Part shown: positions 4,731 through 40,928 of the stretch, one piece after another
Position numbering within the stretch: position 1 is the first letter of the stretch
Layout of the letters: each line of letters opens with the position of its first letter
Assembly (NCBI GenBank): GCA_001799735.1
Contig: MGUA01000019.1
Span: forward strand, 1-47,237
Origin: Elusimicrobia bacterium GWB2_63_22
GTDB lineage: Bacteria; Elusimicrobiota; Elusimicrobia; Elusimicrobiales; UBA9959
DNA: 47,237 nt
Reading direction: 5' to 3'
Made by a program: the position numbers and the translations under genes
Notes under the pieces: model-generated
Told to the model about the DNA's origin: nothing
The model's database searches: none
What the model saw: the letters and a program-made list of their open reading frames with translations, nothing else

Positions 4731-5579
4731 ATGGCAAACCCATTCTCGGAATCGCTGGTTAAACTGCGCAAAGCCGCCGGTTTCCCCACCGGCTACAGGT
4801 TCTTTCATGACAGCGGCGGCCAGCCGGTGCTGAAGATCACCTACCGGAAATACCTCCTGTGGGAGCAGGGCCGGGTGCTGCCGCCTATAGAGGCGCTCAC
4901 CCGCCTGGCTCCGGCGCTTAAACTGCTGCCTAACAGCGGGGCGCTGGGAGAGCTCGCGGCTTCCTGGCTCAGGACCATGGCCGGGGACGAAACCTACAGG
5001 TATATACTGCGGCCCATTATCTCCGTTAAGGATGAGACCGCCGGCCTGCCGCCCATGCATTCAGCCATGGGGCACGCGCTCGGCAGCAAGAAATACCCCG
5101 TTACGGTGGCCCAAGCCGCCGCTTCGCTGGAAAGTTTCGACCATCATAAGGCGTTTCTCTTTGTTACCAAGGACGGCGGCGACTGGAGCGCGGAAAGGCT
5201 GGGCTCCTGCGCCGGGCTGGCCAGGAAAACGGCTGTCGCCGTCTGCAAGGATTTCCTGGCGGCCGATATATTTAAAAAAGCCAAGGAAGGCGCCTTTTCC
5301 TGCCCGCTGGCCGGGGCCTTACTGGAATTCCCCAGGCTCGAACTGCTGCCGCCCGGCTACCCGCAGCGCGCGCACGAGTTCCAGCGCAAGCTGCTAGATG
5401 AAGGCCGTATTACATGGCGAAGGTGCGGGTTCATACGGGCCGACCGCGAAGCGCTGACCGGCTTCCTGCCTATCATAGATACCAGCGTGCTGACGGCCCA
5501 CGCTTATGAGAGCCCCGAGGGCAAAGCCTTGTTCGCGGTGGAGGGCCGCCTGGTGAAGTTAAGCGATTTCAAACCCTGA
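4731..5579 (+). CDS. Putative helix-turn-helix protein of unknown role
   Basis: The 282-aa product has an N-terminal segment that reads like an XRE-type helix-turn-helix: SLVKLRKAAGFPTGYRFF, then ITYRKYLLWEQGRVLPP and IEALTRLAPAL (about residues 8-68). The centre has a second possible winged-helix stretch (WSAERLGSCAGLARKTAVAVCKDFLAADI, about 145-185). The C-terminus has no named motif. This suggests a DNA-binding regulator with a recruitable second domain, but no ligand site is visible. No Shine-Dalgarno box precedes the ATG; a TAGAAT hexamer ends six bases before it, so the transcript may be leaderless. A good terminator follows at 5604-5630. It lies just upstream of the two cassette-type secreted protein genes and may regulate them; that is inference from position only. 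Confidence 0.65.
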   Translation: MANPFSESLVKLRKAAGFPTGYRFFHDSGGQPVLKITYRKYLLWEQGRVLPPIEALTRLAPALKLLPNSGALGELAASWLRTMAGDETYRYILRPIISVKDETAGLPPMHSAMGHALGSKKYPVTVAQAAASLESFDHHKAFLFVTKDGGDWSAERLGSCAGLARKTAVAVCKDFLAADIFKKAKEGAFSCPLAGALLEFPRLELLPPGYPQRAHEFQRKLLDEGRITWRRCGFIRADREALTGFLPIIDTSVLTAHAYESPEGKALFAVEGRLVKLSDFKP

Positions 5580-5603: not shown

Positions 5604-5630
5604 ACCGCCGGTCAGCCCGGCGGTTTTTTT
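5604..5630 (+). terminator. Rho-independent terminator after the HTH gene
   Basis: ACCGCCGG (5604-5611), a 5-base loop and CCGGCGGT (5617-5624) form a perfect 8-bp stem followed by a run of seven T (5624-5630). It ends transcription of the gene at 4731-5579 just before the first copy of the 256-bp direct repeat begins. Confidence 0.9.
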
Positions 5631-5633
5631 ATT

Positions 5634-5889
5634 GGCTGGTCCCGGGGCGTGGGACTAAAAAGGCTTTTTTGGTATCGTCCGGCGCCATAAACCATCAGGC
5701 CTCAAAATTGGCACTTCCGCCTCATGCGGTTTCCCGACGGGAGTTCTATACTATAAGCATAGGGTTCGCGGAAAATTTCGGTCAAGGAGAAAAGAAATGA
5801 AAAAGCAAAGCACGATAGCGGCGGCGGTTCTGGCGGTAACGGCGGTCCTGGCGGGCGGCGCCTGCGCGGCGGAGTTCGCGGGCCTGCAG
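5634..5889 (+). repeat. 256-bp direct repeat, copy 1 (promoter + leader + signal peptide)
   Basis: The sequence from 5634 to 5889 recurs at 7169-7424 (offset 1535) with a single base change: G at 5857 against A at 7392, turning Gly21 into Ser. It spans the whole upstream region, the ribosome binding site and the first 31 codons of the secreted protein gene. Identity falls off abruptly at both ends, at the preceding terminator hairpin and just after the signal peptide. Confidence 0.97.
5732..5752 (+). promoter_or_regulatory. Candidate -10 and palindrome in repeat copy 1
   Basis: TATACT (5747-5752) is a good -10. No convincing -35 lies 15-18 bases upstream. Instead there is a perfect inverted repeat TCCCG-A-CGGGA (5732-5742) ending four bases before the -10, where an activator or repressor could bind. 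The same arrangement stands in copy 2 at 7267-7287. Confidence 0.5.
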
Positions 5890-7131
5890 ACTATGCGGGC
5901 TTCAGGAGTGATGTCGTCCGCCAAGCAGGCCGGGGACATTGAAATAACGAAGATAAGCGCAGCGCCCGTAAAGGACATCCTGGGCGCCCCCGCTATCACC
6001 CAGGTGGTTGCCCCGGATTATATCTGCCAGGACGAGGGCGGCGGTTTTGCCATCCGCATCGGGGGAAAGGCCCCGAAAATCTGGCAGCTTGACGGCTATT
6101 CCACCGGGGCCGAAGAAGGAATAGAACTTAATAAAGTAAATATTGACGGGTCCGGCCTGCCGCACAGGCTCGGGGCGCAAGGGTATCTTTCCTTCGCCGG
6201 GCAGGATCTTAAACTGGATATCGCCCTGAAGCAGGACCCGAAGAGCGGCGGTATGGCGCTTACCGCCCTGCTCAACGGCGAGGAGACTTCCCTGAAGAAC
6301 GTTCCCTGCCGGACGGGTTCCGGCAAGTCCCGGACCGCCGGGCAGCGCGTGTACGCCGAGGGCACGCTTTTTTCCTATAACCGGCAGACGCGCGATTACG
6401 ACATTAATACGGGACGCGTCTGCTCGCTGACCCTGGAGAGGTTCGGGAACTATCTCGATACGGAACACGGCAGCCCGCGCGAGGTGGTGTCGGCGCGTTA
6501 CACGCTGGGCGGCTTTCCCGAACCCGGCGCCTACGCGTCCGGCACGGCCGTCGGCGGCACTCCTACCGCGTCTTTCCCCTACGTCACGCTGGAAAACTAC
6601 AAGTCGTCCGGCCTGGCCGGCGGCACGCGCGTTAAGATCCTGCTGTCCGGCGTAAGTTCTGCCCAGGCCCTGCTGGACGGGAAAGTCCCCTCCGCGGAGA
6701 TTTATGTGACCAAAGAGGCCCCGGTCGCTTCCTATTTGGGCGGCGACGGCGTGGGTTGGGGCTACTTCTGCGACCTGCGGCCGGCCTCCTACAAGGCTGC
6801 CCGCAACGGCGGCGCCCTTTCCGGCACCTATCAACTGAGCAACGCCTACACCGAGGGCACCGTGACCGCGCGGCAGTTCTCCGAGGGCGGCCTTGAAAAG
6901 GTCGAATTCCAGCTGCTCACCGCCTCGGGTGTCAATGGACACGAAGCGCAGATAAGCGGCGTGGCCTTGCGCGGCCAGGGCGGAGAATTCGTATTTAACG
7001 GCGAGGAGGGCTGCCGGCTGATGCTGCAGGCCTCAGGGCGCGTTCTTAAGATCAGCGGCGCCGACGCTACCTGCCGCGCCTACATGGGCGTAAATGCCGC
7101 GGCGGACGGCGAGTACGTTAAGCGGGATTGA
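5797..7131 (+). CDS. Secreted protein A of the duplicated-cassette pair
   Basis: The 444-aa product begins with a clear signal peptide (KKQSTIAAAVLAVTAVLAGG, likely cut after CAA near residue 25). Residues about 66-171 form a domain also found at the C-terminus of the next protein: shared marks are ITxV-x-P-x-Y-[IV]-CQ, GGG, [IV]WQ[LV]DG, LSF-x-G, and a closing NGEE...VPC. Its two cysteines (Cys77 and Cys171) are conserved in both and may form a disulfide. The rest (about 180-444) is beta-rich, contains further cysteines (for example in GRVCSLTLERF and YFCDLRP) and is not recognised. The start is fixed by AAGGAG seven bases before the ATG. Exported to the periplasm or surface; function unknown. 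A stem (7145-7171) follows the stop. Confidence 0.85.
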   Translation: MKKQSTIAAAVLAVTAVLAGGACAAEFAGLQTMRASGVMSSAKQAGDIEITKISAAPVKDILGAPAITQVVAPDYICQDEGGGFAIRIGGKAPKIWQLDGYSTGAEEGIELNKVNIDGSGLPHRLGAQGYLSFAGQDLKLDIALKQDPKSGGMALTALLNGEETSLKNVPCRTGSGKSRTAGQRVYAEGTLFSYNRQTRDYDINTGRVCSLTLERFGNYLDTEHGSPREVVSARYTLGGFPEPGAYASGTAVGGTPTASFPYVTLENYKSSGLAGGTRVKILLSGVSSAQALLDGKVPSAEIYVTKEAPVASYLGGDGVGWGYFCDLRPASYKAARNGGALSGTYQLSNAYTEGTVTARQFSEGGLEKVEFQLLTASGVNGHEAQISGVALRGQGGEFVFNGEEGCRLMLQASGRVLKISGADATCRAYMGVNAAADGEYVKRD

Positions 7132-7144
7132 GGAGGAAAACAGC

Positions 7145-7171
7145 GCCGGCAAGCGCCGCCCGCTTGCCGGC
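7145..7171 (+). terminator. Perfect 11-bp stem-loop after protein A
   Basis: GCCGGCAAGCG (7145-7155), loop CCGCC, CGCTTGCCGGC (7161-7171). No T-run follows directly, so termination would be weak; a T6 run lies 30 bases further on inside the repeat. The second 256-bp repeat copy starts at 7169, in the last bases of this stem. Confidence 0.6.
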
Positions 7172-7424
7172 TGGTCCCGGGGCGTGGGACTAAAAAGGCT
7201 TTTTTGGTATCGTCCGGCGCCATAAACCATCAGGCCTCAAAATTGGCACTTCCGCCTCATGCGGTTTCCCGACGGGAGTTCTATACTATAAGCATAGGGT
7301 TCGCGGAAAATTTCGGTCAAGGAGAAAAGAAATGAAAAAGCAAAGCACGATAGCGGCGGCGGTTCTGGCGGTAACGGCGGTCCTGGCGGGCAGCGCCTGC
7401 GCGGCGGAGTTCGCGGGCCTGCAG
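7169..7424 (+). repeat. 256-bp direct repeat, copy 2
   Basis: Second copy of 5634-5889, identical except for the base at 7392. It gives the second secreted protein the same upstream region, palindrome (7267-7277), -10 (7282-7287), ribosome binding site and signal peptide. Confidence 0.97.
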
Positions 7425-8333
7425 GCCATGGAGGTTTCCGAAGTAACGGCGGTTGTGGCGGAAGTTCCCGCTCCCCCCGTCCCCAAGGCCGCCCTGCGGG
7501 CCAACGGGACCCCCATTGACGGCTGGCTGGATGGACGAGCGCACGACCACATGGCGCCCGGCCCCCTGGGTCCTAATTCTAAATATGTCCTCTACTCGAC
7601 CCTGGTCAAAGATGAAAATACGCTTTACCTCCAGGCCTTCTCTCCGGTACACGGCCTGGACTACCTGGCGGATTTCAGGACTTCCCTGGAATACGCCCTG
7701 GCGGATCTCGCCAGCCTGCGCAGCGACAGCGGTTATTCTTACCTCGTCGCTTTCGAGCAGCAGAACTATTCCCCCGCGGCGGCTTCCAGGGTGAACATGC
7801 TGGTCGTGGAGTTCGATTCCGGGAAAATGCTGCGGTTCGCTATCGTCCGGGGGGTACCGGCTGGAGATATTAAGGACGGGAAATTCAAAGCCTATGTCCC
7901 GTCGGACGCCAAAAACAAGCACTGGTCTCCCTGGATGGCGGAAGTTTCCGCTTCCTCCGTTGCCAAAGCAGCTCCGGACCGCAATACCAGCCCCATTACC
8001 AAAGTGGAAAATCCCAAATACGTCTGTCAGACCCACGGCGGCGGGCACGCCGTCGCGTTGAACGGTAACTCGGCCCGCGTCTGGCAGGTAGACGGGGCGG
8101 AGGAAGGCGCGCAGGAGGGCTTGGAACTCAACAATGTTGTCCTTACCCGGCACCCCCGTCCCGACCATCTCGACATCGCGGGAACTCTTTCGTTCTACGG
8201 CGAAACCATTAAGCTGGACCTGGCTATCAGGACCGACGCAAATAATCCGGGAAATCCGTATATGATCGTTAAGATAAACGGCGAAGAGCAGGAGCCGCCG
8301 CTCGAGAAGGTGCCCTGCAAGATTGTCTACTGA
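7332..8333 (+). CDS. Secreted protein B of the duplicated-cassette pair
   Basis: The 333-aa product shares its first 31 residues with protein A except Ser21. Residues about 45-200 are unlike protein A and not recognised (SKYVLYSTLVKDENTLYLQ, LDYLADFRTSLEYALADL). Residues about 220-329 are homologous to residues 66-171 of protein A, with Cys232 and Cys329 matching its cysteines and the same closing INGEE...VPC. Between these parts the linker AEVSASSVAKAAP (from residue 203) repeats the linker AEVPAPPVPKAAL that follows the signal peptide (from residue 43), also at DNA level (7456-7496 against 7936-7976). So the unique domain is bracketed by two copies of a linker. Start fixed by AAGGAG. Exported; function unknown. 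Two stem-loops follow the stop. Confidence 0.85.
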   Translation: MKKQSTIAAAVLAVTAVLAGSACAAEFAGLQAMEVSEVTAVVAEVPAPPVPKAALRANGTPIDGWLDGRAHDHMAPGPLGPNSKYVLYSTLVKDENTLYLQAFSPVHGLDYLADFRTSLEYALADLASLRSDSGYSYLVAFEQQNYSPAAASRVNMLVVEFDSGKMLRFAIVRGVPAGDIKDGKFKAYVPSDAKNKHWSPWMAEVSASSVAKAAPDRNTSPITKVENPKYVCQTHGGGHAVALNGNSARVWQVDGAEEGAQEGLELNNVVLTRHPRPDHLDIAGTLSFYGETIKLDLAIRTDANNPGNPYMIVKINGEEQEPPLEKVPCKIVY

Positions 8334-31972: not shown

Positions 31973-32473
31973 TCAGGCCCTGTTCTTTTCGGAACCGCTC
32001 TGGCAGGCCATGCAGTAGCGCGCCGAGGGCAGGGCCTTGATGCGCTTTTTTTCTATGGTCTTCTTGCAGTGCTCGCAGAGGCCGTAGGAACCCTTCTCCA
32101 TCTTGCGCAGGGCCGCGTCTATGTCGCGCAGCATCTTGCGCTCGTTGTCGGAGAGCTCGAAAAGGATCTCCTTGTCCAGGCTCTGGGTGGCCTGGTCTAT
32201 GGAGTCGCCGACCTCGGGCTCCAGCATGTCCAGATTTTTCTTGTCCTCTACGTTCTTGGCCAGGTCCACCTTCATCTCGTTGAGCGAGGCGGAGATCTCG
32301 GCCAGTTCCTGCCGGGACAGGGGGCCGCCCTGCTGCAGCTTCGCCGGCGCGGCTTTTTTGGCCGGGGCGGTTTTGACCGCGGCTTTTTTGGCCGCGGCTT
32401 TTTTGGCCGGGGCTTTTTTAGCGGCGGGCTTTTTGGGAGAGGACTTGGGGGCTGCCTTCTTGGTTTTTTTCAT
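31973..32473 (-). CDS. dksA: DksA/TraR-type zinc-finger protein with a histone-H1-like tail
   Basis: The 166-aa protein has a Lys/Ala/Pro-rich head (residues 1-45) of PAKKA-type repeats like histone H1 tails or AlgP. It is followed by a coiled coil whose tip bears D90-S-I-D93-Q-A95, the DxxDxA motif by which DksA acts in the RNA polymerase secondary channel, and a four-Cys zinc finger (Cys133, Cys136, Cys154, Cys157). It is thus likely a DksA-like transcription factor of the stringent response, with a DNA- or RNA-binding tail. It is the third gene of speD-speE-dksA, starting nine bases after the speE stop. Its tail is encoded by repeats of GGCTTTTTTGG (rc), at 32350-32470. Confidence 0.88.
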   Translation of the reverse strand: MKKTKKAAPKSSPKKPAAKKAPAKKAAAKKAAVKTAPAKKAAPAKLQQGGPLSRQELAEISASLNEMKVDLAKNVEDKKNLDMLEPEVGDSIDQATQSLDKEILFELSDNERKMLRDIDAALRKMEKGSYGLCEHCKKTIEKKRIKALPSARYCMACQSGSEKNRA

Positions 32474-35014: not shown

Positions 35015-38000
35015 TCATCTCTCCACCGCCAGCTTCAGCACTTTTTTGCCGGCGCTGGAATCTATGACCGCCAGGTAAATGCCGCTGGCTACGAGCTCGC
35101 CCGACTTGTTGACGCCCTTCCAGATGATGATGCCGGTGGTGCCGGCCGTGCCGTCCCAGACCTTCTCGCCGGAGAGGGTGTAGATGCGCACCTTGGCGGC
35201 CGCCGGGATATTGGCGATGGTGACAAAGCCGTTGCCCCTGTTGGTGTAGAAGGGGTTGGGGTACACCAGCACGTCGGCCAGGCTGGTGGAGGCGTTGCGG
35301 ACGATGAGCTGGAAGAGGCTGAAATGGTTCAGCGTCGCGGTGATGGTGCGCGGGCCCGTGTCGATGACGGTTTCCAGCGGCAGGCACTGGCCGGACACCG
35401 GGTTGTAGCGGGCTATCACCATCCGGTTGCGGTTGGCGTCGATGGCCGCGATGGACTCCGCGCTGTTGTAATAGAGCGTCAGGTTCACCGGGGTCTGCGG
35501 CTGCGCGCCGTCCTGCGAGTAGACGGAGACGGTTATCGGCTGTCCCCCCACCAGGTAGCCGCACGGGTTCAGGTTGGAAGACGAGATGGCTATGGCCGTG
35601 GGCGACGGGAAGGCGCCGGCCGGGATGTACATGGACACGGCCCTGCCGTTGGGCAGGGTGCCGGTGATGGTGGTCGCCACGGTGGGATCGCTGGTGCCGC
35701 CGACCGAGCCGGCCGGGGCGCTCTGGGGGCCGGCCAGGGTGAAGGCCGAGGGCACGGCCTGTATGCGGGCCGTCACCTTGCCGTCGCCGTTGCGCGCGGC
35801 CACGTCGAAGTAGTAGGAGGTGCCGGTCAGCAGGCCGGTCAGCTGCACGTAATTTTGCGTGTAGAGGGCCGCGAACGGCACGTAGGTGGTGACGGAGAGC
35901 GTGAAGTTCTCCGTAGTGCCGCGCACCTCGTAGATGGTGGTGGAGGAGTTGTCGGCCGTCTCCCATCCCAGCGTAACGCCCGACATGGTGGTGGCCACCG
36001 GGATCACGGCCAGCGGGGCGCGGGCCAGGGTGTATTTGGAGCCGAGGTCCAGCGGGGTGCCTTCTGCGCCGGCGCCGTTAAGGGCGGTGATCTGCACGAA
36101 GTAGCGCTCGTTGGGCAGCAGCCCCGTGAAGTCCAGGGAGTCGCCGGTGGTGGAGAAAGAGGAGTATTCCACAAAGTCGCTGTGCGTGGACAGCAGCAGC
36201 TTGTAGAGGGTGCCCTCCGGGTTGCCGTTGGTTATCCAGTAGGCGGTAAAACTGCCGGTACTGACGTTGGTGAAGACGTTGGGCGTGGCCGGCAGCGGCT
36301 GCACCGTAAGGGAGTAGATGGAGCGGGACACGGCCACCGGGCCCCTTACCGTGCCGAACCCCGTAAGGTCCTTGGCCGCGTTAACGGTGACGGTGTGGCT
36401 GGTGTTGGCCAGCAGCCCCTGCTGCATGAAGTAGTTGTAGCTGGTGCTGCCGACATAGACCACGTTCTGCGTGCCGGCGGTCACGTCGAAGACCTCGTAG
36501 TAGATGCCGGAGCCGTCCACCTCGTCCCAGGACCAGCTGATGGCCGAGCTGCTGACGGCCGTGCCGGTGAGGTTGGTGACCCCGCCCACCGTTACGGTGG
36601 AGGTCTGATTGGTGTTGAACGGCGTAAGTATGCCGGCCCCGTTGCTGGCCCTTACCCGGAAGAAGTAGAGCTGGTTGGCCGAGAGCTGGTTGATGGTGGT
36701 GAAGGTGCTGGTAAAGTTAACGCTGAAAGGCACCGGCGTGGAGATGGCCAGCGGGTCCGCGAAGTTGTCCGGGGACATGGACAGTTCGTAGGTGGTGGCC
36801 GGGGTGTTGTTGTTGGGCTCCCACGACAAGGAGACCCGCTCGAAGCTGGCCGAGGTGACGGTGAGCGTGCTGGGCGTGGCCGCCAGGGTGTAGTAGGTGG
36901 CCGACCTGGTGAGCGGGCCGTAGCCGCCCAGGTTATAGGCCGAGATCATAATGGAGGCCTCGGTGTTGGGCCTCAGGCCGGTCTGCGTGTATTCGGCCGG
37001 GGAGGTGAAGGAGACGGTGGTGATGAAGATGCTGCTGCTGGCCGAGTAGACCGAGTAGCCCTGGGCAGAAGCGATGTCCACGTTGCTCCAGCTCCAGGTT
37101 ATGGAGCTGGTGCCGAGGATTTCCGCCTCCGGTGCCGTGGTGGTGCCGGTGGGGCGCGGCACGGTTACCTGCACCGTGTGGCCGGACGAGAACTGGCCGT
37201 TGGCGGCCACGCGCACGTGGTACCAGCCGTGGGGCAGGGCGCCTATCTCCGAGGGCGCGGTTATGGTGATGGAGGAAAGCGTGCTCTCCCAGGTGCCCGT
37301 GCTGTAGATGCCGCCGTAGTGGGAGTAGATCCTGGTGGAGAGGTCCACCATGAAGCCGCTGGCATTGTCTATCTGCTGCATGTAGACGCGGGGATTGGAA
37401 TGCGAGGAGTTCATGGGACCGGCGCTGCCGCCGGAAGCCTCGCTGATGCCGTGAAAATTAGTGGTGGCGCTCTGCAGCGTCAACCGGTCCCCCCGGTCGA
37501 AGAACACCGTGCCGGTGGAGATAACGGGGTTGCGCTGCGTTTCCGCCTCCAGGCCTTCGGCGTCGGGAGAGTAGGAGAAATAGGCCATGTCGGTGGTGTC
37601 GAGGTACTTGGACCCGTCCCAGCCGCCGATGTTGAGGATATAGTTGTCCCGCGTGATCAGGGAGGTGTGGTGGCTGCGGGCCTCGGTGCCGCCCTGGTCC
37701 GTGAAGCTCATGAAATCGGGGTCGAAACTTTCGGAGCGGCTCTGGGAGCCGCCGGCGGTTTCGCCGCCGGTGACCATTACCTTGCCGTTGGGCAGCAGCA
37801 CGGCCCTGTGGCTGGCGCGGTTGTAGGTGAGCAGGATCGGCACAGGCGTGGCGCCCGGGGTCTGCGTGTAGGTCCAGGAGGCGCCGTTGTAGATCTCGCC
37901 GGTGAACTGGGCTACCTCGTTATCGGAGCCGCCTATCACCAGCACGCGGCCGTCCCTGAGCAGGGTGGCGGAGTGGCCGTAGCGGTGAGTGTTCAGGTTG

Positions 38001-40864
38001 GGGCCGGCCGTAAAAGACCTGCCCGAGTAATTGTAGACCTCGCTGCGGAGCACGGCGGCGTAGCCGTTAGTGCCGCCGGTCATAAGCACGTTGCCGTTCT
38101 TGAGCAGGGTGGCCGTATGCTGGGCCCGCGGCTCGGTCATCCTGTACGGGGCGGAGTCCCAGCTGGGGTGGCGCTCCCAGTAGGAGGTGGAGGTGATAAA
38201 GACTTCGGTGGTGGCGGAGAAGGTGCTCTGCGTGGCGCCGCCGGCCACCAGCACGTTGCCGTCGGGCATCAGGGTGGCGGTGTGGTTCTGGCGCGTCTCG
38301 TACATGGGCGTGGTCAGCACCCAGCTCCTGGAAGCAGGGTAGAAGATCTCGGCCGTGTTGACGGCCGAGCTGGACGGCGTGGCGCCGCCGGCCACCAGCA
38401 CGTTGCCGTTGGGCAGCAGGGTGGCGGTGTGGCGGGTCCTGGCGAAATTCATGCTGGCGGTGGGGGTCCAGGCCTTGGTCTCCGGGTCCATCAGCTCGCA
38501 GGTGGCCAGCGGCTTTACGCCGTCCGAGCCGCCGCAGGTAAGGATCTGGCCGTCGAACAGCATGGTGCTGGTATGGAAGGCGCGTTTGGAATTCAGCTTG
38601 CTGCCGTCGGCCCAGTCGCCGCTGCCGTCGCCGGAGCCCTTGTAGACGGGGATAAAGATGGAGGCGACTTCGGTGGCGGAGAAGGTCGGGGTGAGACAGG
38701 GAACGGACGGAATATCGGGGTCCAGCACGCCGTCTTCGCAGTTGCGGCCGCCTATCATTGCGCTGTCGCCCGCCGGGGTAAGGAGCGCCGTATGGTTGTA
38801 CACCGGCTCGGCAAGGGTGGGCGAGACGTCGGTATTGTTGAGGGGCTTCCAGGTATTGGCGTTGGGGGTAAAGCCCAGCGCGCTGGAGAAGATCATTTCC
38901 CGGACCACGGCGCCGGAGCGCCTGTAGCTGAAGGCCGGCTGCGCGTCGGCGGGGCGTATCTCGTTGGCGGTATAGGTAAACTGCAGCGTGACGTTAAGCA
39001 GGCCGCCGGCGGGCAGGTTGGCGGAATTGGCCTGGATAGTGACGCCTTCCTGGAGGTTGCTTATCTCGCCGGTAATGCTGGGGATGGTCACAGAGACCTG
39101 GAAAACGCAGGTAGAGTCGCCGCAGGGGAGTACCGGGTTGTCCACGGAGATATTGGCTACGCTGCCGGCGCCGGCTATGGTGATGGCGTAGTTTCCGGCG
39201 GGGTCGGTTATGGTGCCGCTCCTGATGGCGGCCGTGCCCCTGATGCCGCGGTAGATCTTGGGCAGGGTGAGGCCCAGGGTGCCGGTTAGGGAGCCGCCGG
39301 TGATGTTCTGGGGAGAGTTCGGTTCCGTGGAGTCTATCGGGTTTACCGCGGGGAAGGTCAGCGCGTAGGCCGAGACGTTAAGGGCCGGGTCGGAGCTGCC
39401 GTCCGAGCTGAGGTTGGCCGGTTCAAAAACCGCCCAACTTTCGGTATCGCCCTGCGGCACGCGCAGCGTGACGATACTGTCAAAGTCGCCGGGCTCATGC
39501 TGGTCGTCTATCAGCGTGCCCACGGGGTAGCCGTCCAGCGTGGCCGTGCTGTTGCCTACGAATAACTCCACGTTCTCCACGGCTATGGCCGGCGCGGTCG
39601 GGTCTTCCAGCTTGGCAAAATAGGCGTCGGCGTTCACCAGGCGGCCGGAAACGTCCCTGGCGAACTTGAATTCCAGCGGTATCCGTATGTTCGAAGCGGC
39701 GGAGTTTATTGTCGCCTGTCCCGGGGTGGCGGTAGGGACGGTGACGATGAGTACGGCCGGGTCGTCGTCCAGGTTGGGGCTGGCCTCGAACAGCGTGCGC
39801 ACTATGCCGCCGTAGCCGCCGTGCATGTTCCAGCCGCCGTCGGGCAGCAGCAGGGCGGAGTGCTTGTGCACCCGGTAGGGCGACGTGCCAAAAGTGTTTT
39901 CTCCCAGCACCATGCGGCCGCCGTTCTGGTCAAAGAGTTCGGCGCCGTCCAGGTAGCCGTGGCTGCCCCAGTCCTGTACGGCGGCGGCGCTGCCTATCCC
40001 CGTGTATCTCCAGGCTTCCGCGTCCGCGGGGGTCCAGCATTCTTCGCCCTCGTCGTTGACGCACCTGTAGGTGTTGGTGGAATTGTAGCCGCCGGAGATC
40101 ATGATGATGCCGTTGTTGAGCACCGTGGCGGAATGGTCTATCCTGCCCTGCAGCAGGTTGTCCTTGGGGGACCAGGACGAGATCAGCACGTCGTACATCT
40201 CGTTCATGGGCTCGTAGATCCAGGCGGTGTTGGCCGCGTTGCGGCGGCGGCCGCCGGTGACGAACACGTTGCCGGACCGGAGCAGCACGGCCGAGTGGCC
40301 CATGCGCGAGCTTACCATGGAGACGGCGTCGGCCACGGTATTGTTGACCGGGTCGAAAAGGTCGCAGGTCTCGGTAATATTAGTATTGGCGGCGGCGGTC
40401 TGCCCGCCGCAGAGCAGCACCTTGCCGTTATTGGGGCCCTTGGACAGCAGGGTGGCGGTATGTCCCCCCCTGGCCGGGGAAAGCACGGGCGCGCCGGCCG
40501 GTACGGCGCAGGTCCTGGCTATCGGGTTGCAGACTTCGATACTGTTAAGAGGGGTGCCGTTGTTAAAGCCGCCGGCTATGAGTATGCGGCCGTCGGACAT
40601 GAGCGTGGCGGTATGGGAGGACCTGGGCTGGGCCAGCGTGCTGCCCCAGGCGTCGATATTGTTGGTCACCATGTTGTACATCTGCGCGTTGTCGGCGACG
40701 ATGGGCGTGTTGCCGGCGCCGGAGACGCCGCCGGCTATGAAGATGTTGCCGTCGGGGAGCAGGGTGGTGGAGTGGCTGTGTCTGTCCACCATCTGCGCGC
40801 CGGCGTCCGGCAATAGGATTGCCAGCGCCAGCAGGGATAAGGAGAGGACTTTTCTAAAATTCAT
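35015..40864 (-). CDS. Giant secreted kelch/FN3 protein with type-A sorting-like C-terminus
   Basis: The 1949-aa protein has a signal peptide (VLSLSLLALAILLPDAGA). Fourteen kelch-like motifs of the form H-S/T-A-T-L-L-x-(D/N)G-x-(V/I)-x-(V/I)-x-GG occur in two groups: six in about residues 25-345, then a beta-rich insert, then eight in about 690-1075, which suggests two beta-propellers. About five FN3 domains follow (about 1245-1715), then a beta domain with IPAGAFPSPTAIAIS, and last about 85 residues that fit a type-A T9SS or FlgD-like sorting domain: VYPNPF, KVRIYTLSGEKVW, GVNKSGELVASGIYLAVI, KVLKLAV. It is probably exported and fixed on or released from the surface. I start at the ATG at 40864; a TTG eight codons earlier is possible. 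One base separates it from porV. Confidence 0.9.
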   Translation of the reverse strand: MNFRKVLSLSLLALAILLPDAGAQMVDRHSHSTTLLPDGNIFIAGGVSGAGNTPIVADNAQMYNMVTNNIDAWGSTLAQPRSSHTATLMSDGRILIAGGFNNGTPLNSIEVCNPIARTCAVPAGAPVLSPARGGHTATLLSKGPNNGKVLLCGGQTAAANTNITETCDLFDPVNNTVADAVSMVSSRMGHSAVLLRSGNVFVTGGRRRNAANTAWIYEPMNEMYDVLISSWSPKDNLLQGRIDHSATVLNNGIIMISGGYNSTNTYRCVNDEGEECWTPADAEAWRYTGIGSAAAVQDWGSHGYLDGAELFDQNGGRMVLGENTFGTSPYRVHKHSALLLPDGGWNMHGGYGGIVRTLFEASPNLDDDPAVLIVTVPTATPGQATINSAASNIRIPLEFKFARDVSGRLVNADAYFAKLEDPTAPAIAVENVELFVGNSTATLDGYPVGTLIDDQHEPGDFDSIVTLRVPQGDTESWAVFEPANLSSDGSSDPALNVSAYALTFPAVNPIDSTEPNSPQNITGGSLTGTLGLTLPKIYRGIRGTAAIRSGTITDPAGNYAITIAGAGSVANISVDNPVLPCGDSTCVFQVSVTIPSITGEISNLQEGVTIQANSANLPAGGLLNVTLQFTYTANEIRPADAQPAFSYRRSGAVVREMIFSSALGFTPNANTWKPLNNTDVSPTLAEPVYNHTALLTPAGDSAMIGGRNCEDGVLDPDIPSVPCLTPTFSATEVASIFIPVYKGSGDGSGDWADGSKLNSKRAFHTSTMLFDGQILTCGGSDGVKPLATCELMDPETKAWTPTASMNFARTRHTATLLPNGNVLVAGGATPSSSAVNTAEIFYPASRSWVLTTPMYETRQNHTATLMPDGNVLVAGGATQSTFSATTEVFITSTSYWERHPSWDSAPYRMTEPRAQHTATLLKNGNVLMTGGTNGYAAVLRSEVYNYSGRSFTAGPNLNTHRYGHSATLLRDGRVLVIGGSDNEVAQFTGEIYNGASWTYTQTPGATPVPILLTYNRASHRAVLLPNGKVMVTGGETAGGSQSRSESFDPDFMSFTDQGGTEARSHHTSLITRDNYILNIGGWDGSKYLDTTDMAYFSYSPDAEGLEAETQRNPVISTGTVFFDRGDRLTLQSATTNFHGISEASGGSAGPMNSSHSNPRVYMQQIDNASGFMVDLSTRIYSHYGGIYSTGTWESTLSSITITAPSEIGALPHGWYHVRVAANGQFSSGHTVQVTVPRPTGTTTAPEAEILGTSSITWSWSNVDIASAQGYSVYSASSSIFITTVSFTSPAEYTQTGLRPNTEASIMISAYNLGGYGPLTRSATYYTLAATPSTLTVTSASFERVSLSWEPNNNTPATTYELSMSPDNFADPLAISTPVPFSVNFTSTFTTINQLSANQLYFFRVRASNGAGILTPFNTNQTSTVTVGGVTNLTGTAVSSSAISWSWDEVDGSGIYYEVFDVTAGTQNVVYVGSTSYNYFMQQGLLANTSHTVTVNAAKDLTGFGTVRGPVAVSRSIYSLTVQPLPATPNVFTNVSTGSFTAYWITNGNPEGTLYKLLLSTHSDFVEYSSFSTTGDSLDFTGLLPNERYFVQITALNGAGAEGTPLDLGSKYTLARAPLAVIPVATTMSGVTLGWETADNSSTTIYEVRGTTENFTLSVTTYVPFAALYTQNYVQLTGLLTGTSYYFDVAARNGDGKVTARIQAVPSAFTLAGPQSAPAGSVGGTSDPTVATTITGTLPNGRAVSMYIPAGAFPSPTAIAISSSNLNPCGYLVGGQPITVSVYSQDGAQPQTPVNLTLYYNSAESIAAIDANRNRMVIARYNPVSGQCLPLETVIDTGPRTITATLNHFSLFQLIVRNASTSLADVLVYPNPFYTNRGNGFVTIANIPAAAKVRIYTLSGEKVWDGTAGTTGIIIWKGVNKSGELVASGIYLAVIDSSAGKKVLKLAVER

Positions 40865-40928
40865 AATCGCCCGGGTATAGTCTACCAAACGCCTGTTACA
40901 GGATTGTTAACAAAAGTTTAAGTGTTGC

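Follow-up and report, generated by a model that had tools for sequence, protein, structure and literature searches.

Antigenic variation loci, such as vlsE of Borrelia and the surface lipoprotein loci of Mycoplasma, combine expression sites with donor cassettes. A different kind of organisation is seen in Fibrobacter, where the paralogous regulator family TIGR02147 / DUF4423 forms a multi-copy helix-turn-helix (HTH) family within one phylum and is associated with exported paralogous proteins. In polymorphic toxin systems and similar exported families, a constant trafficking N-terminus is joined by recombination to different C-terminal domains (PMC3482391). A duplicated module of the uncultured Elusimicrobia bacterium GWB2_63_22 bears comparison with each of these. 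We consider it fairly probable that this module represents the promoter, leader and signal peptide of an undescribed secreted-protein regulon of Elusimicrobiota, which would be controlled by the regulator family encoded next to it and would have expanded by copying of the module. In the open literature, which was the scope of our search, we found no description of the regulator family, the element or the regulon.

The window, that is, the whole stretch of 47,237 nucleotides that was analysed, comes from a 45-contig assembly, and all genomes with which it was compared are MAG assemblies. The features under discussion occupy its first part and are collected in Table 1. Two further genes of the window deserve mention in their own right. 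One (31976-32473, minus strand) encodes a zinc-finger protein of the DksA/TraR type whose N-terminal repeat tail is rich in lysine and alanine, resembles histone H1 (HC2) and is encoded by 15-bp repeats. The product of the other (35018-40888, minus strand) is 1957 aa long, contains many Kelch repeats as well as fibronectin type III domains and is likely a large surface protein.

Table 1. The duplicated module, the two genes that it heads and the neighbouring regulator, in order of position in the window.
Feature	Position	Strand	Basis
Putative regulator, 282 aa, XRE-like HTH (about aa 1-62) and MarR-like winged helix, undescribed paralogous family	4731..5579	+	Homologues, AF2 model, Foldseek
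Terminator-like hairpin and T run, 3' of the regulator gene and directly 5' of module copy 1	5604..5633	+	Read from the sequence; also in the hairpin listing, on the opposite strand
Module copy 1: upstream region, 82-bp element, RBS, start, gene 1 codons 1-31	5634..5889	+	Differs from 7169-7424 at one base; L130 has the orthologous module in this position
82-bp promoter-like element, copy 1	5685..5766	+	Weight matrix; model R2 match
Gene 1, predicted exported protein, 444 aa, order signal-A-B-C	5797..7131	+	ORF; domain limits from homologues
Domain A in gene 1, aa 56-179	5962..6333	+	Homologous to gene 2 aa 211-331 at 38-39% identity
Domain B in gene 1, about aa 180-332	6334..6792	+	In G000:C37 and G014:C7, present with neither A nor C
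Domain C in gene 1, about aa 326-443	6772..7125	+	Stands by itself in G025:C65 and C69
Hairpin with an 11-bp stem, behind gene 1 and reaching into the first bases of module copy 2	7145..7171	.	Hairpin listing
Module copy 2	7169..7424	+	Sequence comparison with copy 1
82-bp promoter-like element, copy 2	7220..7301	+	Model R2 match
Gene 2, predicted exported protein, 333 aa, order signal-D-A	7332..8333	+	ORF; homologues
Domain D in gene 2, aa 49-205	7476..7946	+	58-59% identity to G025:C80 and G014:C4, in other contexts there
Domain A in gene 2, aa 211-331	7962..8324	+	Homology to gene 1 aa 56-179

The two 256-bp copies of the module lie at a spacing of 1535 and differ at a single base (G at 5857, A at 7392), a degree of repetition that cannot be chance. 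Each copy comprises the intergenic region, the ribosome-binding site (RBS) and codons 1-31, in frame with an intact open reading frame, and both encode the Sec signal peptide MKKQSTIAAAVLAVTAVLAG[G/S]ACAAEFAGLQ. An earlier note on this DNA had described the copies as sharp-ended. This is true of the left edge, which is abrupt and without flanking homology, each copy beginning just past the hairpin behind the preceding gene, but the right edge fades: the following 27 bases remain identical in register at 17 positions (P = 0.00025 against random pairs), and the copied tract therefore ends within older homology. A search of the source genome and its relatives, as the earlier note had proposed, returned just the two near-identical copies in the 3.06-Mb genome and none in 31 congeners, and the sole good relative of the module in the family (75%) was found in G252, the genome to which locus L130 belongs (regulator at 7618 in both). 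The base that differs between the copies is A in L130 as well as in copy 2, and the derived base is thus in copy 1, which does not give the direction of copying within the window. A mobile or transposable element was considered as the identity of the module and rejected, as its 256 bp are without inverted terminal repeats, both copies are local and there was no plasmid match.

Locus L130 (Elusimicrobiales Ess09-09) is from a different genus of the family and has an orthologous regulator (88% amino acid identity) followed by an orthologous module, about 75-78% identical overall to that of the window. Divergence between the orthologous modules is uneven along their length, unlike the equal divergence that the earlier note had named in its refuting condition: the element box keeps 88% identity and the signal-peptide codons keep 68%, but the 19-bp spacer only 47%, whereas the window copies differ from each other at no position of the element box and spacer and at one in the signal-peptide codons. 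Because spacer and signal-peptide codons diverge freely between orthologues, selection alone is ruled out as the source of the identity between the copies; recent copying or conversion of the module by itself accounts for it, much as had been supposed from the window. Behind the L130 module, the mature part consists of an FGE-sulfatase-fold domain (E 1e-52) and contains none of domains A, B, C and D; joins between leaders and mature domains have been remade repeatedly.

The earlier note had also described the two genes behind the copies as encoding different mature proteins that cannot be aligned in place. They indeed fail to align in place, but this is because a domain of ~120 aa that both contain, domain A (E about 1e-23; 41% identity in a trimmed alignment), is displaced by about 150 aa. 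With domain A present at different positions in their products, genes 1 and 2 are domain-shuffled paralogues and not unrelated. In congeners the domains recur in other combinations, namely as A+B, as B without A, as C alone and as D in other contexts. The structure model of domain A, which was built from two sequences only, is all-beta (pLDDT 77), and a comparison of this model with the PDB gave no convincing match (best E 0.15).

Paralogy of this kind would also suit a narrower account, in which gene conversion between old tandem paralogues homogenised their 5' ends only and no wider mechanism for recruiting domains exists. The two genes are in tandem and share domain A, the fading right edge is as expected for a conversion tract that ends in homologous DNA, and a second pair of similar promoters in the source genome, on contig C20, likewise belongs to neighbouring genes. 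We nevertheless find this account unlikely, given that the order of domains differs between the genes (A-B-C versus D-A), that the left edge breaks off where no flanking homology exists, that the orthologous module in L130 heads an unrelated domain, and that the A+B domains found in three congeners stand behind another promoter class and another signal peptide (MKKFNLIAL...).

Near-identical promoters ahead of different genes recur outside the window. The C20 pair, at about 91.3 and 92.1 kb of that contig, is 90.5% identical over 211 bp, with one mismatch in the 82-bp element, and precedes different exported-protein genes. In a congener (G002:C308), four promoter modules with 90-98.6% identity are found ahead of different exported proteins; the one located at 2.2 kb includes the final 39 bases of the regulator gene (LVESRITKLRDF*) but lacks its remainder. 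This regulator tail looks like the footprint of copying outward from a regulator-proximal promoter, and taken alone the case could be an assembly effect because the contig is short and the MAG fragmented. Contig C20 of the source genome also contains, at about 65-107 kb (G000:C20, L094-L096), a 40-kb cluster of eight elements and two regulators with several duplicated segments, an apparent hot spot.

The core of the module is an 82-bp promoter-like element, which can be given in short form as TAAG...GCCTCA[T/G]GY-N19-TANNCTAT and more fully, as a rough consensus, as NCGTAAGCC.AAA.AC....GC.GGG.C.T.CGCCTCA[T/G]GY-N19-TANNCTAT. It was found by aligning the leader with weak matches from this and related genomes, followed by an iterative 82-bp weight matrix that detected 54 sites in the loci versus none in a reversed control. 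With a sequence-only model (R2), the element was detected in all 32 genomes of the genus, with 2-29 sites in each and 21 in the source genome. Over 47 elements there was no conserved base pairing, which fits a signal at the DNA level; a structured RNA leader was rejected accordingly, there being also no Rfam match above threshold. A sigma-54 promoter (GG-N10-GC, -24/-12) was likewise rejected, as the bases ten past the GG in TTGGCACTTCCGCCTCATGC are TC and the consensus of the 47 sites does not restore the motif. We infer that the element serves as a promoter.

Genes with a predicted Sec-type signal peptide follow the element at 49 of the 52 assignable sites and at 14 of 15 further sites, the latter in loci drawn from the genus-wide element matches, and thus at 63/67 in all, compared with 22% of random ORF starts, where the prediction in each case is by a simple hydrophobicity rule (positive start, hydrophobic stretch, small residues at the cleavage site) and not by SignalP. 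The mature parts of the 67 element-headed proteins fall into 36 groups that are unlinked at E 1e-4, and include trypsin, clostripain, polysaccharide deacetylase, Lnb_N, PLD-like, peptidyl-arginine-deiminase-like and FGE domains as well as many orphans. This diversity bears out the proposal, first made from the window, of an expression-and-export cassette that stands ahead of varied secreted domains, as do the L130 module before its FGE-fold domain and the two further sets of near-identical promoters before different genes. A family-wide sorting motif at the mature N-terminus was considered and set aside: about a dozen proteins share [DE]FxxLQxxxAS, and a loose pattern occurs in 17/67 versus 9% in shuffles. 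FGE-sulfatase (C-type-lectin-fold) domains are found in three element-linked exported proteins (L130:8686-9591, L126:1584-2312 and L134:14329-15234). The FGE/C-type-lectin fold is one often used by diversity-generating retroelements.

Homologues of the putative regulator encoded upstream of the first copy accompany most element loci. Six are present in the source genome, the family is present in 49 of the 295 genomes that were sampled from the phylum as a whole, and the 48 named loci in which homologues were found belong to Elusimicrobiota MAGs wherever the title states a phylum. By sequence, this protein could be assigned to no known regulator family, Pfam, NCBIfam and PDB sequences all giving no match. 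In the AF2 model (mean pLDDT 86), the N-terminal domain superposes by Foldseek on the XRE HTH (probability 0.99-1.00, TM-score to target 0.6-0.7), with E-values that are weak because the whole regulator chain is without a match, and a MarR-like winged helix was also matched.

Several observations connect the regulator family with the element. Of 72 element sites, 29 have a regulator within 3.5 kb versus about 1 expected, a figure inflated by the training of model R2 partly on regulator-near sites. The offsets are preferred ones, either 139-209 bp upstream and divergent or, in the arrangement of the window, about 0.89-1.06 kb downstream from where the regulator starts, and in divergent pairs the element is placed between the regulator and its target. 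Divergence of the regulators is correlated with that of the elements (Mantel r 0.58, P 0.0002), which could reflect shared descent of linked genes. Regulators of this family, including the one encoded at 4731-5579, most likely bind the element and would control the exported-protein genes next to it.

Some further observations on the regulator loci may be noted here. The window regulator is 88-92% identical to members from another genus of the family (L118, L130) but only 75% identical to the nearest one found in a congener (G005), a pattern that hints that regulator and module were transferred laterally as a unit. In the relative from X2_MetaBAT.4 (L118:8890-8990), whose regulator is 92% identical, homology to the window ends at 5635, just past the regulator terminator; by eye, the sequence beyond this point resembles the 5' end of a group II intron inserted behind the terminator, and a 291-base stretch of it gave no Rfam match. 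At L120:4906-5901 (minus strand), the gene directly behind the element encodes not an exported protein but a second paralogue of the regulator, which suggests auto- or cross-regulation.

The element might instead be an ordinary core promoter, recognised by an alternative sigma factor or a global regulator for exported proteins, with the XRE-like proteins as mere members or passengers of the clusters. Elements are present in two genomes without a detected regulator (G012 and G024), the source genome has about 21 elements versus six regulators, and several sites, including those on its contigs C8 and C37, are far from any regulator, so that the element may answer to something else. Moreover, there are at least three classes of element among the 47 sites, which differ in the upstream half, and the GCCTCA-N19-TANNCTAT core is common to all of them. 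The strong clustering with regulators, the preferred offsets, the correlated divergence and the position of the element between regulator and target in divergent pairs all speak against a passenger role, and we doubt that the core-promoter account is correct. An artefact of assembly, in which the second copy stems from a wrong contig join at a short repeat, is very unlikely. Repeats of this size can mislead short-read assemblers, and the genome is in 45 contigs; however, frame, RBS and signal peptide are intact at both joins, one base differs between the copies, homology fades past the right edge, the start of the mature part of gene 2 resembles that of the L130 protein behind the orthologous module (37/54 versus 28/54 bases), and similar cases occur elsewhere (C20 and G002:C308).

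On the reading that we favour, that of a secreted-protein regulon expanded by module copying, a regulator of this family would bind the long element and switch the adjacent exported-protein genes. The promoter module, with or without the signal peptide, may be copied by ectopic recombination or gene conversion to a place before another mature domain. As the block of promoter, leader and signal peptide is compact, a single short copying event would give the new mature domain expression, control and export together. Modules copied outward from beside a regulator would cause the secreted-protein regulon to grow, and the window contains a very recent case of module copying. It is quite possible, though somewhat less likely than not, that this forms a phylum-specific system in which regulators act as anchors and their cognate promoter-leader modules are repeatedly copied onto new exported genes, with a turnover of the exported repertoire that outpaces that of the remaining genome. 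If so, regulation, expression and export would be gained in one recombination step, a concrete route by which bacteria might recruit new export proteins, with promoter, regulator site, signal peptide and linker acquired in the same event. Together, the regulator family and the 82-bp element also predict a regulon of secreted proteins in a phylum where genetics is almost lacking, and they would provide a handle on many orphan exported proteins.

How, then, does this locus compare with the described systems? With antigenic variation loci it shares an identical 5' module adjoining divergent exported coding regions. The likeness to variable surface protein systems that the earlier note saw in this constant leader ahead of varied exported domains is not supported, and antigenic or phase variation through an expression cassette whose coding cassettes are exchanged within a single genome is scarcely credible, as the near-identical copies number two only, both of which head intact and complete genes, inverted repeats of at least 40 nt are absent from the window, no silent donor cassettes or switching enzyme were found, and exchange is visible between lineages. 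The Fibrobacter TIGR02147 / DUF4423 family offers a likeness in its multiple HTH copies within one phylum and in its association with exported paralogous proteins; the window regulator, however, matches nothing in NCBIfam or Pfam, even with the threshold at E 10. Its predicted N-terminal domain resembles XRE-family regulators (PDB 5woq, 2b5a and 6rnz), but the family differs from these in having extra winged-helix and C-terminal parts and no match to a Pfam HTH model, and within the loci and genomes searched it was found only in Elusimicrobiota. The likeness to polymorphic toxin systems (PMC3482391) lies in a constant N-terminal part with exchangeable C-terminal domains, which is the arrangement seen here. 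Yet the mature domains tested are not known toxins, a Pfam scan of 22 proteins having revealed no toxin family and, for most, no match at all. Here, moreover, the constant part includes the promoter and otherwise consists of essentially just a signal peptide and a short linker, and a cognate-looking regulator adjoins it.
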